Part shown: one piece after another, positions 725 through 24,177 of the stretch
Numbering within the stretch: the stretch's first letter is position 1
Layout: each line of letters opens with the position of its first letter
DNA from: a virus
DNA: 29,892 nucleotides
Reading direction: 5' to 3' (one strand)
IMG/VR virus record: IMGVR_UViG_3300042937_000242
Location: 1-29,892 of that record
Program-made: the position numbers and the translations under genes
Notes under the pieces: generated by a model
The model's input: only the letters and a program-made list of their open reading frames with translations
Told to the model about the DNA's origin: nothing
Databases searched by the model: none

Positions 725-841
725 TTATTTATCAGTTTTTTTTGGTCTTGCTTCTTTTTTGCGACCAGAAACTTCTTGCATACTTCCTTTTTTAGAGGAA
801 AGCATTTGGGAATAATTTGTATTCTTTTTCTTTTTTTTCAT
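725..841 (-). CDS. Very short polybasic protein, 38 aa
   Basis: The product starts MKKKKKNTNYSQ and ends RPKKTDK; about a third of its residues are Lys or Arg. A weak GAAAGAG site lies upstream of the ATG. It resembles in composition the lysine-rich small proteins encoded between terminase and portal (5254-7223). It lies between a hairpin (879-908) and the next virion gene. Because it is so short and A-rich, it could be a chance reading frame, but it fills an otherwise empty gap in a tightly packed strand. Confidence 0.5.
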   Translation of the reverse strand: MKKKKKNTNYSQMLSSKKGSMQEVSGRKKEARPKKTDK

Positions 842-878
842 ATTATTCTCTTTCAATTACTTAGTGTTATTAAAGATA

Positions 879-908
879 TGCCGCCAGAGGAATACACCCC
901 TGGCGGCA
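879..908 (-). terminator. Perfect 9-bp hairpin downstream of the 157-aa structural gene
   Basis: TGCCGCCAG at the left pairs exactly with CTGGCGGCA at the right around an AATACA-centred loop, with two further G-C pairs inside after one mismatch. It is GC-rich in an AT-rich region and lies 17 bases beyond the stop of the 157-aa gene. In the leftward direction it is followed only by a weak T stretch (TATCTTTAATAA), so it may be a partial terminator or a 3' stability element. Confidence 0.5.
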
Positions 909-925
909 CACCCTAGTCAGCTAAA

Positions 926-7648: not shown

Positions 7649-9238
7649 TCAGTAACTATTGAATTCACCTATCCAATAACGCTCTTTAGTCTTAATTGGC
7701 TTATGTAGCTTCTTTTCAAAGTAATTCATGGTTCCCCATGGAGAGTCAGTTTTAGGCTTATACTCTGGCAGCCAAACGTACTTAAGCATCTGGTTGGCAA
7801 TAGCCAAAGACATTACTCGGTCGTCGTGCGGGGAGCCGTGCGTAGAGCCATTGTCATCACGGACAAAGGTCTTAAGTTCAGCTATCGTATATTCACATCG
7901 TAGGTCTAATGCACCATCTCTTAGATTGGCATTCAATTCGTCTATAGCTAAAGGCTTAGTCAAGGTTGTTGTGCGCCAACCCAATGCCTCTGTGGCTTCA
8001 GCGTGGCGTTGGTTTAATCTACGCTGTCTATAAAGATTAATATAATTAGCTTTATTTAAAGCAGTTAAAGTTGTTAAACCGTGGTTATTAGACTCAACTC
8101 CTATTAAAGCTTCATTATAAAAGAACCCCAATGCATAAAGAACTTCTTCGCCAAACTTGTCTGGGTCAATATGACCATGCCAGTGGGCAACTATAAGACC
8201 AGACTTAGCATCAATAACATGAGCGGTAGAATAGTCACCCCTAGCCAATCCTTCGGCCACGTCAGCTCCAATAGCATAAACAGCTCCTGCCTGTGGTGTT
8301 TGCCATACGGAGAGCGGTCCACCGGAGGACTCAAACATATAAGAGTTTCGAACATCAGAGAGTTTTTTATTAAAACCTTTCTTAGGGGTTGTTGTAATAA
8401 ATCTATTTAAAGCGTCAATGTCAAATACTGGTCTGCCAGAACGAATGAATGCTTCTTCTGGATTAGATGGGTACTCTTGGTGTAGTTGCCATATTGGTAG
8501 TTCTGCGGCTTGCGCGTCATACCAGGCTTGGTCACGACCAGATGCTGACCATGGAAAGAAGATTCCACGGAAACGATTAGTCCCAGTCTGCGACCCATGC
8601 CATAAATTAAAGAATATATTACCTTCACCCTTGGCAGTAGACAAGCAGATAACACGACCACCTACGTCAGCAATTGGCTCGATTGATGCCCAGGCTTCCT
8701 CAGGATTAGGCAAAAAAGCCATCTCGTCGATTATAGCCAGATACACTGATTCACCTCTAGCAGGCTCGTTAGCAGATGGCATTGATTCAATTACAGAGTC
8801 ATTACTAAAGGACATCTTAAGAACGTTATTTTGTAATAGTTCAGGACCAGACAATCTCATCCAGTCAGGTATAAATTTATAAATATACTTAGCCTTTTGT
8901 AAAAGCTTTGTAGCTTCACGTTCAGTCTTTGAAAGCATAACCACAAATCTGTCTGGCCAAAAGAAAGTAATCCAGAAAGCATATGCTGCAGCCAAAGTGG
9001 AGAATCCAATCTGACGTGCCTTTAATACTATTGTATATCTATCACTTAACCATGCTTTAACAGTTTCTTTTTGCGCGTCCCTTAAAACAAAAGCAATACG
9101 TCCTTGGTTAGGGTGTTTAATATAAGCATAGTTTTCACAGAAGAAAGCAAATGCTTCTGCTAGTTCTGCTGGTGTTGCGTTCTCTGGCCCACGGCACTTA
9201 CGAAAGTTCCACTCATTAAGTAAACTATTTAGTTCCAC
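7649..9238 (-). CDS. terL: Terminase large subunit, 529 aa
   Basis: This is the DNA-packaging motor ATPase and headful or end-cutting nuclease. The Walker A-like loop KARQIGFST is at residues 73-81, Walker B YLAIIDE at 166-172 and coupling motif LSTAKGEG at 199-206. The C-terminal RNase-H-like nuclease has Asp326 in GADVAEG, Glu382 in IGVES and Asp472/473 in SPHDDR. The start is GTG with GGAG seven bases upstream; no earlier ATG is in frame. It overlaps the sulfotransferase gene by 14 bases. All key residues are present, so the enzyme is probably active. Confidence 0.95.
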   Translation of the reverse strand: MELNSLLNEWNFRKCRGPENATPAELAEAFAFFCENYAYIKHPNQGRIAFVLRDAQKETVKAWLSDRYTIVLKARQIGFSTLAAAYAFWITFFWPDRFVVMLSKTEREATKLLQKAKYIYKFIPDWMRLSGPELLQNNVLKMSFSNDSVIESMPSANEPARGESVYLAIIDEMAFLPNPEEAWASIEPIADVGGRVICLSTAKGEGNIFFNLWHGSQTGTNRFRGIFFPWSASGRDQAWYDAQAAELPIWQLHQEYPSNPEEAFIRSGRPVFDIDALNRFITTTPKKGFNKKLSDVRNSYMFESSGGPLSVWQTPQAGAVYAIGADVAEGLARGDYSTAHVIDAKSGLIVAHWHGHIDPDKFGEEVLYALGFFYNEALIGVESNNHGLTTLTALNKANYINLYRQRRLNQRHAEATEALGWRTTTLTKPLAIDELNANLRDGALDLRCEYTIAELKTFVRDDNGSTHGSPHDDRVMSLAIANQMLKYVWLPEYKPKTDSPWGTMNYFEKKLHKPIKTKERYWIGEFNSY

Positions 9239-10046
9239 GCCAAAACTCCAATCCCGAATAACGCTGTATTGTTTCTGGCAAGAACACGTCTTCTGGTTTG
9301 CGTGATTTCTTTTCTAACTTTGGTCTTACTTTGTGTAGATTCTTAATCCCTGTAAGACTGTTTTCAGAGATACCTGAGCTGTCTTCAATGTTCTGATATT
9401 CATGATTGTATTGCGGAATTTCCAAGTATTCATATATTTTATTAATTTCCTTCTGTGGATTGGTGGTTAAGTCATCATACTCAACAAAGTGAAACAAGTG
9501 TCTATATTCTGGATTCATTGCATGTTTCATATTATTTAAGCATCTCATTATATCATTACCAAACTTCATTAGCCAATCTGCTCTGCGGTCAGCCATTGGT
9601 TTATCTGGAAATGTTTCTAATAAAACTTCTTTGTCCATTAAAGCATTTTGCTGCGAATCAGGATGAGCATTAATGATTGTGTCAAATGAAACTAATATAT
9701 CAAGTATATCTCTTACTGGACATATTATTTTAATATTTTGATTTATATAACGATAAGCTACTTCTACGCCATTGGCTGATGTCCAATTAAGGTTCTTATC
9801 AATGATGTAGTTAGCTTGTTTATCATAATAAAAGTTTTGTGGTATTGCGGCAATTGCATTAGATATTGCGTTGCCTCTGTCATAGTCTTTATGTTCAAAT
9901 GAATCAAATGTTTGTGTAGCATTAATCATCATTTGTAACATTGGACTTGCCGGCGAAACCCACAAGTCTGGATTTTGATTTAAGATTGAACTAAGTACTG
10001 TTGCACCTGAGCGTTGAAGCCCAGCTAAAAAAAATATTTCCTTCAT
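9225..10046 (-). CDS. Sulfotransferase family protein, 273 aa
   Basis: It should transfer sulfate from PAPS to an acceptor. The 5'-phosphosulfate loop is FLAGLQRSGATVLSS (residues 6-20) and the 3'-phosphate site is CPVRDILDILVSF with Arg112 and Ser120. DKNLNW (residues 83-88) is the usual strand after the loop. The length fits a single-domain enzyme. The acceptor is unknown; since the gene lies between a giant fibre and the terminase it may modify a virion protein or host surface glycan. It is coupled by overlap to the terminase gene. Confidence 0.85.
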   Translation of the reverse strand: MKEIFFLAGLQRSGATVLSSILNQNPDLWVSPASPMLQMMINATQTFDSFEHKDYDRGNAISNAIAAIPQNFYYDKQANYIIDKNLNWTSANGVEVAYRYINQNIKIICPVRDILDILVSFDTIINAHPDSQQNALMDKEVLLETFPDKPMADRRADWLMKFGNDIMRCLNNMKHAMNPEYRHLFHFVEYDDLTTNPQKEINKIYEYLEIPQYNHEYQNIEDSSGISENSLTGIKNLHKVRPKLEKKSRKPEDVFLPETIQRYSGLEFWRGTK

Positions 10047-15362: not shown

Positions 15363-15392
15363 TTGTTAATCCTGCTCTTGGTATGGTACTAT
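15363..15392 (+). promoter_or_regulatory. Candidate rightward promoter before the OB-fold gene
   Basis: TTGTTA and TACTAT are separated by 18 bases. It would give a leader of about 120 bases that holds a palindromic cluster at 15469-15495. Both hexamers are only moderate matches. Confidence 0.35.
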
Positions 15393-15453
15393 ATGGTTAC
15401 TCGGGTTCTGCATAACAGGAAAACATGAATAACAAACAAATATTAAAGGTTGG

Positions 15454-15495
15454 TTATTCAAGGTAACTGTTACTAGTAACCACATTCAAGTAACC
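15454..15495. repeat. GTAACC repeat cluster with palindrome GTTACTAGTAAC
   Basis: The 12-bp perfect palindrome at 15469-15480 is flanked by ATTCAAGGTAAC and ATTCAAGTAACC, so GTAAC half-sites occur four times in about 40 bases. It lies just upstream of the ribosome site of the first rightward gene and could be an operator or an mRNA structure that hides it. Confidence 0.45.
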
Positions 15496-15518
15496 ATTAT
15501 AATCGAAGGAGATTAGAA

Positions 15519-15967: not shown

Positions 15968-15997
15968 TTGCTTAGGACAATATGAGGATGCTATACT
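15968..15997 (+). promoter_or_regulatory. Extended -10 promoter for the five-hairpin RNA
   Basis: TGCTATACT (15989-15997) is an extended -10 with TATACT as core; TTGCTT lies 18 bases upstream. The predicted start, six to eight bases later, falls exactly at the first base pair of the first hairpin (16004). The same TGCTATACT recurs at 16571-16579. Confidence 0.5.
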
Positions 15998-16003
15998 GGT
16001 AGC

Positions 16004-16148
16004 CTCTTAGGAACGTCCTGAGAGACCTTAGAAGAGATTCTAGGGTTACATAATCAGTGATGATGAACTAAATAGTAACTTACTAGGTTGGGGACAACTT
16101 AGAGCTTTCGTGAGGAAAGGGCCAGGGATTAAGTTCTCTGGTCTTTTT
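16004..16148 (+). ncRNA. Candidate small RNA of five tandem hairpins
   Basis: The five stems, in order, are: 16004-16024 (9 bp, loop ACG); 16025-16046 (9 bp, GNRA loop GAGA), abutting the first; 16083-16102 (8 bp, GNRA-type loop GGGA); 16105-16119 (5 bp, loop GTGAG); and 16120-16143 (9 bp), followed by a T-tract. No credible reading frame fills it. It starts at a promoter and ends at a terminator, giving about 145 bases. It is either an independent RNA or a regulatory leader of the 40-aa gene that follows. I do not recognise a known RNA family. Confidence 0.6.
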
Positions 16149-16157
16149 CTTTTATTT
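16120..16157 (+). terminator. Rho-independent terminator
   Basis: GGCCAGGGA pairs with TCTCTGGTC over nine positions (two G-T pairs), loop TTAAGT, followed directly by TTTTTCTTTTATTT. It ends the candidate small RNA and precedes the ribosome site of the 40-aa gene. Confidence 0.75.
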
Positions 16158-16175: not shown

Positions 16176-16298
16176 ATGTTTGAATTAGAACCAGAACACA
16201 ACTTGTGGGATGCTGAACACCCAGAGTGGTTTATATATGACGTAGAGTTGCTTAATGCTTGGTACTGGGAACAATGTGTAATAGAATTGGAAGGCTAG
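16176..16298 (+). CDS. Very acidic 40-aa peptide
   Basis: MFELEPEHNLWDAEHPEW begins the product. It has nine Glu, two Asp, four Trp and no Lys or Arg at all, so a net charge near -11. AAGGAG lies nine bases before the ATG, which is a good site. It follows the terminator of the candidate RNA, so its translation may depend on read-through. Such small acidic phage proteins can mimic DNA or bind host enzymes, but nothing here proves that. Confidence 0.65.
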   Translation: MFELEPEHNLWDAEHPEWFIYDVELLNAWYWEQCVIELEG

Positions 16299-16390
16299 TA
16301 CTTAAGCTTAACTAGGTACGGGGGTCTTGGGATTTTATAATAGTCCGTTTGTCCCTACATAGTACGGTACCCTTATGTAAATGGGTATAC

Positions 16391-16424
16391 GGGGGGCCTG
16401 GGTGTAGGGGTGTGCCTGGGTGTA
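16391..16424 (+). repeat. G-quadruplex-type tract with an 11-bp direct repeat
   Basis: Four G runs (6, 3, 4 and 3 bases) are separated by loops of 3, 4 and 7 bases, meeting the usual quadruplex rule. GCCTGGGTGTA occurs twice, 18 bases apart, at 16396-16406 and 16414-16424. Such a tract is rare in this low-GC non-coding DNA. Confidence 0.6.
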
Positions 16425-16518
16425 TGTACATGGGTCTGGTAGCACACTGAGTATGATGAGGGTGCTTAGTGGTAGAGCTCATACATAAGAGAGGACCTAA
16501 CCTGTTACTGGCCTAGTG

Positions 16519-16530
16519 GTGATATATCAT
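16519..16530. repeat. Second copy of operator-like GGTGATATATCA
   Basis: Identical in 12 bases to 15321-15332. Here it lies about 40 bases upstream of the TATACT promoter at 16574-16579 and is followed by a hairpin TAGGA/TCCTA. Confidence 0.5.
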
Positions 16531-16549: not shown

Positions 16550-16579
16550 TTGCACACCTTGACCATCCTGTGCTATACT
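16550..16579 (+). promoter_or_regulatory. Extended -10 promoter TGCTATACT
   Basis: TTGCAC and TATACT are separated by 18 bases, with TG one base before the -10. The nine bases TGCTATACT equal those of the 15989 promoter. Confidence 0.45.
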
Positions 16580-16585
16580 ATACGT

Positions 16586-16710
16586 GTCGGTGAGGGAATG
16601 ACGCGGGGGGCTAGTTCTCTTGCCGGCATATAATACGAATATAATAGCTAAGCCATAATAAGACCCAGGATTGTACAGTATTCCTTCTGTATAGTCCTGG
16701 GTTTCTCCTT
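16586..16710 (+). ncRNA. Possible second small RNA ending in a long hairpin
   Basis: It would run from the 16571 promoter to the hairpin at 16661-16704, whose outer stem pairs ACCCAGGA with TCCTGGGT and inner stem TACAG with CTGTA. The hairpin is followed by TTTCTCCTT, a weak T-tract. The middle holds the palindrome TGCCGGCA and two TATAAT boxes. No reading frame with a ribosome site is apparent. Less certain than the first RNA. Confidence 0.35.
16661..16706 (+). terminator. Long two-tier hairpin, probable terminator
   Basis: Ten outer pairs, a symmetric internal loop and five inner pairs, followed by a short mixed T-tract. Confidence 0.5.
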
Positions 16711-16776: not shown

Positions 16777-16961
16777 TAAAGGATGCCCTATATGCAAAGC
16801 AGAGGTGTTCTATCTCTTATGCAGATACAAAGACCTGGATTTATCTTATATTATGATACTTGTATTGAACTTGTATACCTTGATTAAAGATAAGCACTTG
16901 AGCATTAGTCTCTCTATGAGTTCTTGTCTTATCACAATTATAATATTAAAAGATTGTTTGT

Positions 16962-16977
16962 TTTGCGGCGGCCAATC
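16962..16977 (+). repeat. Intergenic 16-base motif, copy 1
   Basis: TTTGCGGCGGCCAATC, identical to 17929-17944. It is preceded by similar AT-rich sequence with ATTAATATTAAA-type words. One copy lies upstream and the other downstream of the 169-aa membrane protein gene. Confidence 0.6.
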
Positions 16978-17007
16978 TTAATAAATCCAATGTAAATACA
17001 AAAGACC

Positions 17008-17048
17008 GAGACAACTGGAGTTCGTAGGGTCTGCAGTTGTCTCATTTT
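17008..17048 (+). terminator. Perfect 10-bp hairpin, terminator or attenuator
   Basis: GAGACAACTG pairs exactly with CAGTTGTCTC around a 16-base loop, followed by ATTTTAAAA. It stands 37 bases before the ATG of the 169-aa gene and downstream of the strong promoter, so it could attenuate that gene. Confidence 0.6.
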
Positions 17049-22478: not shown

Positions 22479-22871
22479 ATGTGGTTTGTGACTGTAACTA
22501 AAACTATGGACTTTAACAATAAAGAAATACCTTTAACCTTTGACGAGCTAAGTCATTTAGTTCCAGCCGGCGTACCGGATAATCCATTCCAAGCTTTAAT
22601 GGAGACTGCTCCCGGTGGCAATGTGCCTTTATCATATGAAGAGATAATAGATTTTAAAGAAGCTATTATTGATTGCATTGATATGTTGTCTGAACAAGAT
22701 AGATTTATTATTGATGCTGTAACTTATGAGCGTGTTACTTTTGCGGAACTTGGTTCTCGCTTAGGCGTATCGTCTGTGCATGCATGGAGACTTTACAATG
22801 GTGCATTGAAGAACTTGAAACAGATTATGAGTATGCATGATGTATTCACAGATAGGTTTGACTTTGAATAA
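22479..22871 (+). CDS. Sigma-factor-like (region 4 helix-turn-helix) protein, 130 aa
   Basis: The C-terminal half, LSEQDRFIIDAVTYERVTFA followed by ELGSRLGVSSVHAWRLYNGA and LKNLKQIM, is a sigma-70 region 4 pattern: a helix with DRFIID, then E(L)G..LGVS...(R)..(A)L..LK. The N-terminal half is acidic and not recognisable as region 2. It could redirect host polymerase to late promoters or act as a regulator. ATG at 22479 is the first start, while the next at 22506 (MDFNNKEIPL) is also possible; neither has a strong ribosome site. Confidence 0.7.
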   Translation: MWFVTVTKTMDFNNKEIPLTFDELSHLVPAGVPDNPFQALMETAPGGNVPLSYEEIIDFKEAIIDCIDMLSEQDRFIIDAVTYERVTFAELGSRLGVSSVHAWRLYNGALKNLKQIMSMHDVFTDRFDFE

Positions 22872-23158: not shown

Positions 23159-23740
23159 ATGAAGAAAGAAACTAAATATTATACATGTCGTGCTTGCAGT
23201 GCAAGTTTTAACCATACCATCAGGCAAGGTAGAGACCCGCAGTACTGCTCTGATGACTGCAGAGGCAAGAGCATAGACAAGACAGCAAAGCCAACGATAT
23301 GGCATTTGAATTGCAAGGCCTGTAAAAAAGATTGGTCAATGGAACGCGTCAAACAAAGTGGACGCAAGCCACACTTCTGCCCTGACTGTTATGATGTAGC
23401 TAGTAAAGAACGTCATAATAAAAGACAGAAGGAACGTGACAGAAGTTATGTTCCTAAAAAAGAACGTGCTATAACTGAACAAAAGATGATTAAGTGGATA
23501 CCATTTGAACCATTGATAAAAGTATTATTACAAGGTCATATTAAAGATGAAGACTGGGCTGTTGTAGATTCACGTGACCGCAGCACAACAACGTACATGG
23601 CAAACAAATTAGGTTTGCAATACAGTTCTATGTCTCGTTACTTAGAACCAGGTGCAAAGATTAACGCATACAAAGCTGATGAGTTTGCTATCCGTTTGCG
23701 GAATGCACCCTATACTTATCTGGGGAATGGATTTCTATAA
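23159..23740 (+). CDS. Double zinc-ribbon DNA-binding protein, N-terminal part (frame-broken)
   Basis: Two four-Cys ribbons stand in series: YTCRACSASF...QYCSDDC (residues 8-35) and LNCKACKKDW...HFCPDC (about 50-77). A basic linker (KERHNKRQKERD) follows, then a helix-turn-helix-like region (TTTYMANKLGLQYSSMSRYL). After DEFAIRL the present frame gives RNAPYTYLGNGFL and stops, but the +1 frame gives GMHPILIWGMDF, the expected continuation. Dropping one base (C23699) gives 253 residues to 23921. Probably a transcription or replication regulator. Confidence 0.75.
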   Translation: MKKETKYYTCRACSASFNHTIRQGRDPQYCSDDCRGKSIDKTAKPTIWHLNCKACKKDWSMERVKQSGRKPHFCPDCYDVASKERHNKRQKERDRSYVPKKERAITEQKMIKWIPFEPLIKVLLQGHIKDEDWAVVDSRDRSTTTYMANKLGLQYSSMSRYLEPGAKINAYKADEFAIRLRNAPYTYLGNGFL

Positions 23741-23921
23741 ACTTGAGGTAGTTGACTTTGAGGTAGGGGAGAGACAGCGTGCGGCTTCACGTAAGTCCAT
23801 GGCGCTAGCCCGTGAGCGTCGTATAGATGCTTTGCTGCAGCAAGGTTACAGTCGAGAGTTAATAACAAAGGGAGGTCACCTCCGCAAACGCGACGTACCA
23901 TCTCACGATGACCAGAGTTAA
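23700..23921 (+). CDS. Zinc-ribbon protein, C-terminal part in shifted frame
   Basis: GMHPILIWGMDFYKLEVVDF continues the HTH of the upstream frame; then comes a basic helix (GERQRAASRKSMALARERRI) and a polar end. Hydrophobic-IWG-aromatic after (L)GMHP is a common close of such phage DNA-binding domains. It could also start at ATG 23703 or 23727. This whole segment lies antisense to the lysozyme gene on the minus strand. Confidence 0.5.
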   Translation, partial: GMHPILIWGMDFYKLEVVDFEVGERQRAASRKSMALARERRIDALLQQGYSRELITKGGHLRKRDVPSHDDQS

Positions 23922-24177
23922 TTTGTAACAAGCCTGAGTCCCAACTCTTATTTCTATTTAGGTGATAAATCATTTCACCTTTTTCATTCCACGTAGCATT
24001 AATTGCTTTGATGCGGCATCTTGATTCACGCCAAGCAATATAACTAAACTCTTTTACTGGCAGGCCAGCAGCTTTAATAGCGGGTTCCCACTTAGGGCAA
24101 CTCTTGCTTTCAGCTGAGGCCGGCGATGGGAATAACATTAATAAAGATATGGCAATAGCCAATATAAGCTTACGCAA
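23716..24177 (-). CDS. SLT/lysozyme-like muralytic protein with signal peptide, 153 aa
   Basis: Residues 1-22 (RKLILAIAISLLMLFPSPAS, then AE) form a signal peptide, so the enzyme is exported. The domain has FSYIAWRESRCRIKAINATW with the catalytic-type Glu in RES, DSGLLQINS (the GLxQINS motif), then VCGG, CNLAAAKHLYDAHGLAPW. These are hallmarks of lytic transglycosylase/lysozyme folds. The start is TTG with AAGGAG seven bases upstream. The last 25 residues (YVKPHAVSPLPQS and on) look unstructured and are antisense to the zinc-ribbon gene. It may act in entry or lysis. Confidence 0.8.
   Translation of the reverse strand: MRKLILAIAISLLMLFPSPASAESKSCPKWEPAIKAAGLPVKEFSYIAWRESRCRIKAINATWNEKGEMIYHLNRNKSWDSGLLQINSGHREMVRRVCGGDLPLLLTLDCNLAAAKHLYDAHGLAPWTYVKPHAVSPLPQSQLPQVYRNPFPR

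Follow-up and report, generated by a model that had tools for sequence, protein, structure and literature searches.

The locus and its transcription signals

The window, by which we mean the whole stretch of DNA that was analyzed, is a 29.9-kb IMG/VR virus record. Its minus strand carries genes for the portal, the major head protein, terL and terS, and also a collagen-like fibre; the plus strand carries small genes, a non-coding stretch of ∼0.9 kb and then other genes. The capsid relatives are 21–38% identical and come from varied phages. Elsewhere in the window we noted a PHROG 351 sigma-factor-like protein, a sulfotransferase and an SLT_3-like lysozyme domain (the last below its cut-off) at 22479–22871, 9225–10046 and 23716–24177, respectively. 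The words GGTTACT/AGTAACC are repeated at 15390–15510, upstream of a gene of 141 aa that is 98% identical between lineages with very different flanks.

At the beginning of the non-coding stretch, beside the packaging genes, lies a structured RNA of ∼150 nt on the plus strand (16001..16151) that we designate RNA1. The stretch has at least two RNA genes of this kind, of which RNA1 comes first. Its start is inferred from the promoter and its end is the U tract of the terminator. The promoter (15968..15997) comprises a –35-like TTGCTT (15968–15973), an 18-nt spacer and an extended –10 element TG-C-TATACT (15989–15997), of which TATACT occupies 15992–15997. Transcription is predicted to start 4–7 nt past the –10 element, at 16001–16004. 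This is the foot of the first hairpin, P1, just where a sequence-only reading of this DNA had put it. The intrinsic terminator (16120..16151) has a stem formed by 16120–16127 and 16136–16143 followed by the U tract, and was identified by a terminator scan and by paired changes. RNA1 is predicted to possess both its own promoter and its own intrinsic terminator, two of the marks of an independently transcribed small RNA.

The fold of 16001–16151 has a free energy of –59.5 kcal/mol compared with –38.5 ± 3.6 kcal/mol for shuffled sequences (z = –5.8); a second run gave z = –5.5, and in each none of 200 shuffles was as good. The hairpins, promoter and terminator claimed in the sequence-only reading are all present. 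No conserved reading frame was found inside RNA1 among its homologues, and a coding peptide was rejected.

Hairpins and the conserved core

Helices were parsed by hand in up to 24 homologues, with the letters checked against the DNA. P1 (16004..16024) is a hairpin of 8–9 bp with a loop around AAxGY, and has 9 bp in the window (16004–16012/16016–16024). It is paired in 168 of 171 cells over 22 loci, in 12 distinct forms. P2 (16025..16046) abuts P1 with zero unpaired bases between them, as had been noticed earlier. It has 9 bp (16025–16033/16038–16046) and a GAGA loop, which elsewhere is GCAA, GTAATG, ATAAAA and others; 158 of 161 cells are paired, in 13 forms. Next comes the conserved core (16048..16078), made up of ACAUA (16048–16052), the hairpin P3 (16053–16064) and AAUAGUAA (16071–16078). 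P3, with the sequence AUCA-GUGA-UGAU, was overlooked in the five-hairpin layout first proposed, but it covaries strongly: all 102 cells are paired, with two loop types and seven forms that include ATCA/TGAT, TACA/TGTA, TGCA/TGCA, TATC/GATA and TCTAA/TTAGA. All three helices exceed shuffled controls, with 2, 0 and 0 of 2000 shuffles as good for P1, P2 and P3, respectively. The motifs of the core are also kept in homologues that were retrieved via terS instead of by a motif pattern.

P4 (16083..16102) has 8 bp (16083–16090/16095–16102) and a GGGA loop. In its type a form all 112 cells are paired, although alone it is weaker against shuffles (79 of 2000). P4 occurs in at least two unrelated builds, both exposing GGGA, some lineages having a substitute hairpin in its place; of 21 homologues, 19 have a predicted fold that leaves the GGGA loop exposed. 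A tentative P5 (16105..16119) is formed by 5 bp, CTTTC/GGAAAG (16105–16109/16115–16119). It is the weakest helix, its conservation being unclear in some homologues, and it shares bases with the terminator's A-rich foot, where they could instead lengthen the terminator stem. The stems of 9, 9, 8 and 5 bp described previously, two of the hairpins having GNRA-type loops, are thus located as P1, P2, P4 and P5. A closing helix AGC/GCU around P1–P4 can be drawn in several homologues but not in all, and we do not claim it.

Homologues of RNA1

How general is RNA1? The searches yielded 24 homologues that differ in sequence, spread over more than 40 phage contigs from metagenomes; their place is constant, divergent from terS and ∼0.7–1.3 kb away from it. 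A scan of viral contigs for an exact 20-base stretch of the core gave 25 stretches, and scans with a spaced pattern and with a P1 pattern added more divergent forms. Bias from motif searching was avoided by a protein search with terS (80 loci) followed by a covariance model of RNA1, termed R1, which recovered RNA1 divergent from terS in additional lineages. E-values of the 24 aligned homologues run from 1e-45 to 2e-6 (E ≤ 3e-6). RNA1 is present in nearly all loci whose TerS shares 67% identity or more with that of the window and which have more than 1.3 kb of upstream sequence; the exceptions are L171, without a recognizable copy, and L158, L166 and L167, with a shorter form. In all, a recognizable copy is absent in four TerS neighbours with enough sequence (L171 and L177–L179). 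A pattern scan for alternative P3 stems with the GUGA loop fixed returned unrelated sequence only.

The chance level on bacterial genomes reaches ∼26 bits, as illustrated by a Rickettsiales genome in which a sequence matching at 26 bits lies inside a 638-aa reading frame and was dismissed. Three loci with 29–30 bits (L135, L136 and L157) were consequently trusted only where synteny, promoter and shared motifs agreed. L135 and L136, the weakest homologues counted, share motifs with the stronger L153 and L159; L157 was excluded from the counts. A shorter sister form in L158, L166 and L167 has the ATAGTAA motif and a covarying P1, GTCTTGGG/CCCAAGAC versus GTCTTAAG/CTTAAGAC. In this form (L158:4286–4425 on the minus strand; upstream of terS in L166 and L167) the promoter and terminator are the same and P3 and P4 are replaced. 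Directly behind the RNA1 of L169 is a diverged second copy (768–918, minus strand) that scores 25.7 bits, near the chance level but adjacent to the first. The 47.8-kb record IMGVR_UViG_3300043467_000329 (L002 and L007) contains two terS loci and two RNA1 copies of different lineages, and probably combines several genomes.

RNA1 lies outside the known families, as the sequence-only reading had supposed. At the gathering threshold Rfam has no match in the window, and a permissive search of Rfam 15 (E ≤ 10) gave only chance-level matches in RNA1. A distant DNA search of the INPHARED phages found no homologue at that sensitivity. Among 84 980 prokaryote genomes scanned for the motif there were 51 matches, at random taxa, none of which was confirmed by the covariance model. 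Two classes, presumed from the centre loci to be Gamma- and Alphaproteobacteria, were sampled with model R1 (321 and 337 genomes) and gave no match, under stricter filters that may lose weak matches. With nothing above chance in Rfam 15, none in INPHARED and no relation found in sequence or fold to the known phage small RNAs, RNA1 would constitute a new RNA family among those encoded by phages.

Covariation and conservation of the transcription signals

With 15 homologues aligned, 93.2% of the cells are paired and 19 of the 37 base pairs have changed on both sides. There are 54 cells with double changes where 15.9 are expected, and none of 500 shuffles reaches any of these measures. Stems not kept by paired changes had been named at the outset as grounds for dropping the candidate, and this outcome did not occur. 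When the partner was slid by 1–3 columns pairing fell to 34–55%, compared with 93% in register. Kinship among the sequences can inflate shuffle tests of pairing, and the slid controls together with the radical replacements of P3 are the stronger argument. In 20 of 21 homologues the plus strand gives the more stable fold of the 5′ region, a bias expected for an RNA with G–U pairs, and such pairs are frequent in the helices of RNA1.

The signals at either end are likewise preserved. An extended –10 element (TGN followed by TANNNT) is found at nearly constant distance from P1 in all 24 loci scanned, L158 included, with –35-like boxes 16–18 nt from it; the promoter score is ≥9 in 22 of the 24 loci, compared with 6% of random positions. 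The last stem was read from the start as a terminator, and this is borne out by the homologues. A terminator is present in all of those whose sequence extends to the 3′ end, and in the 15 aligned sequences 100% of the stem cells are paired, with double changes at five of the eight pairs.

Relationship to the neighbouring genes

Downstream of RNA1 is an ORF encoding an acidic protein of 40 aa (16176..16298, plus strand), with no PHROG or Pfam match. It is a frequent yet dispensable neighbour. A homologue follows RNA1 in nine lineages, the most divergent ones included, and in these the ORF and its ribosome-binding site begin ∼20–50 nt past the terminator. It is absent in at least 11 lineages that keep RNA1, promoter and terminator, and in several of the lineages lacking it a degenerate ATTTGGCATT is all that is left of its start. 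From this pattern the ORF was probably an early neighbour that was later lost, while RNA1 stayed. The upstream genes also differ among relatives (141-aa, small SNPATEKQ, 152-aa and 107- to 120-aa genes), so that RNA1 is kept while the genes on both flanks change.

These observations bear on the suggestion that RNA1 is a 5′ leader of the attenuator or riboswitch kind, in which conditional read-through of the terminator would control the 40-aa gene or whatever lies downstream. The short gap between terminator and ORF in the nine lineages leaves little space for another promoter, so a leader role is conceivable where the ORF exists. Yet a leader of this kind should have a constant downstream gene or gene class, and here the genes that follow RNA1 span more than one functional class. 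Moreover the arms of the terminator evolve freely, and a non-exhaustive inspection of the alignment revealed no antiterminator pairing kept across homologues. With at least 11 lineages keeping RNA1 without the 40-aa gene and no conserved antiterminator seen in that inspection, the leader is disfavoured and we think it unlikely. Of the two interpretations offered by the sequence-only reading, that of a structured small RNA with promoter and terminator has stood, and that of a riboswitch-like leader of the 40-aa gene has lost ground. A regulatory function for RNA1 is one that we infer.

Other explanations and known systems

The abutting P1 and P2 at the start of the transcript call to mind the put RNA of phage HK022, where putL consists of two stem-loops just downstream of PL (PMC9378689). 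RNA1 might similarly bind RNA polymerase through its two 5′ hairpins and let downstream terminators be passed, and there are several terminators downstream. However, put is ∼70 nt, lacks a core like that of P3 and P4, and has its effect in cis, on the polymerase, the marks of its class being antitermination activity and binding to the β′ zinc-binding domain, whereas RNA1 has its own terminator and its conserved letters lie mostly outside P1 and P2. In addition, the second structured RNA of this locus, RNA2, has its own promoter, and read-through would be unneeded for it. Antitermination by RNA1 has little in its favour, and we regard it as improbable. We give slightly less credence to the idea that RNA1 is a decoy that captures a protein of the CsrA/RsmA type, or small RNAs of the UCCC type, through GGA or GGGA loops. 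One GGGA hairpin loop is indeed kept in almost all homologues, but CsrA decoys carry many GGA motifs, whereas GGA counts in RNA1 equal those of dinucleotide shuffles and usually one copy is exposed.

Could the inverted repeats belong instead to a DNA element, such as a packaging site, an origin or protein-binding repeats, and mimic an RNA? Sites of the pac and cos kind often adjoin terS, and the location is suitable, but promoter and terminator fit the plus strand only, and the frequent G–U pairs and stronger folding of that strand argue for RNA. A DNA element is very improbable on this evidence. Hairpins arising by chance in a non-coding region have nothing in their favour beyond the small size of the element; given the z-score of the fold, the conserved promoter and above all the paired changes in independent homologues, which already refute it, the probability of this explanation is negligible.

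Several phage RNAs invite comparison. The pRNA of phi29 is small and structured and its gene adjoins those for packaging, and RNA1 resembles it in all these respects. But the phi29-type motor operates without TerS and TerL, and the phages carrying RNA1 have homologues of both; we see no evidence linking RNA1 to the packaging motor. The c4 antisense RNA of phages P1 and P7 is, like RNA1, compact and built of several hairpins, with functional letters in the loops. The pairing partner of c4 is the ant mRNA nearby, whereas for RNA1, which is unmatched in Rfam, a simple duplex-energy scan of start regions in 14 fragmentary contigs found no recurrent complementary site. Discrete small RNA genes are known in other phage genomes, trans-acting examples being VpdS of VP882 and the PreS and 6S/LPR RNAs of lambda (reviewed in PMC12197685). 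Those reviewed are each known as a single example in a well-studied phage, and most are antisense RNAs that depend on Hfq, unlike RNA1 with its covarying multi-hairpin fold and conserved unpaired core in a diverse clade, and we found no sequence relation to them.

A probable role in trans

On balance it is probable that RNA1 is the gene for an independent structured small RNA of ∼150 nt, belonging to a clade of freshwater tailed phages and acting in trans. Judging from the sequence, the RNA polymerase of the host, carrying the main sigma factor, would start at the extended –10 element and the intrinsic terminator would end the transcript. Covariation shows that the RNA folds into P1-P2-P3-P4 and the terminator hairpin, and most likely it would act ready-folded in the infected cell. 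Letters in the stems vary freely provided they are paired, while the unpaired ACAUA and AUAGUAA, the mostly GUGA loop of P3 and the GGGA loop of P4 stay, and it is this that suggests a ready-folded molecule acting in trans. The core, ACAUA–P3–AUAGUAA, together with the GGGA loop would then be offered to a protein or RNA partner. A more specific proposal, which we put forward tentatively and consider doubtful as it stands, is that the core is the binding site for a protein, of either phage or host origin, and has a direct function in packaging, in replication or in takeover of the host. RNA1 would in that case represent a novel class among the non-coding RNAs of phages rather than an antisense regulator, and the first gene of a conserved locus comprising RNA1, the pseudoknotted RNA2 and perhaps a third RNA.

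Uncultured phages have been little explored for structured non-coding RNAs. RNA1 is kept across a diverse freshwater clade as small neighbour genes come and go; it offers a defined covariance model with which to search viromes and metatranscriptomes, and a specific molecule on which to do structural and pull-down work.

RNA2 and further non-coding blocks

RNA2 (16574..16705, plus strand) lies 0.4 kb downstream of RNA1 and is organized like it. It has its own promoter, with the –10 element at 16574–16579; in L007 the promoter reads TTGACA-18-TATACT. A stem of 13 bp with a G6 loop (16586–16598/16615–16627) is present in seven homologues, where 98.9% of cells are paired and double changes occur at eight of the 13 pairs. 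A likely pseudoknot is predicted between 16609–16614 and 16648–16654. Stem and pseudoknot together make 18 pairs with 96.8% of cells paired, the pseudoknot pairs having no double change; variants with a shifted bulge in L012 and L013 suggest that the pseudoknot may form. RNA2 ends in a terminator-like hairpin (16662–16705).

The interval between RNA1 and RNA2 includes a very G-rich conserved stretch (GTACGGGGGG..., in 16300–16530) and a conserved palindrome, TGATATATCA, at ∼16520. Beyond RNA2 there are more conserved non-coding blocks at 16783–17043 (GTGTTCTATCTC...GATAC... and a TTTGTTTTGCGGCGGCCAATC hairpin), a region that is perhaps a third RNA. At 17008–17043 there is a terminator-like hairpin, the stem letters of which are replaced in L007.
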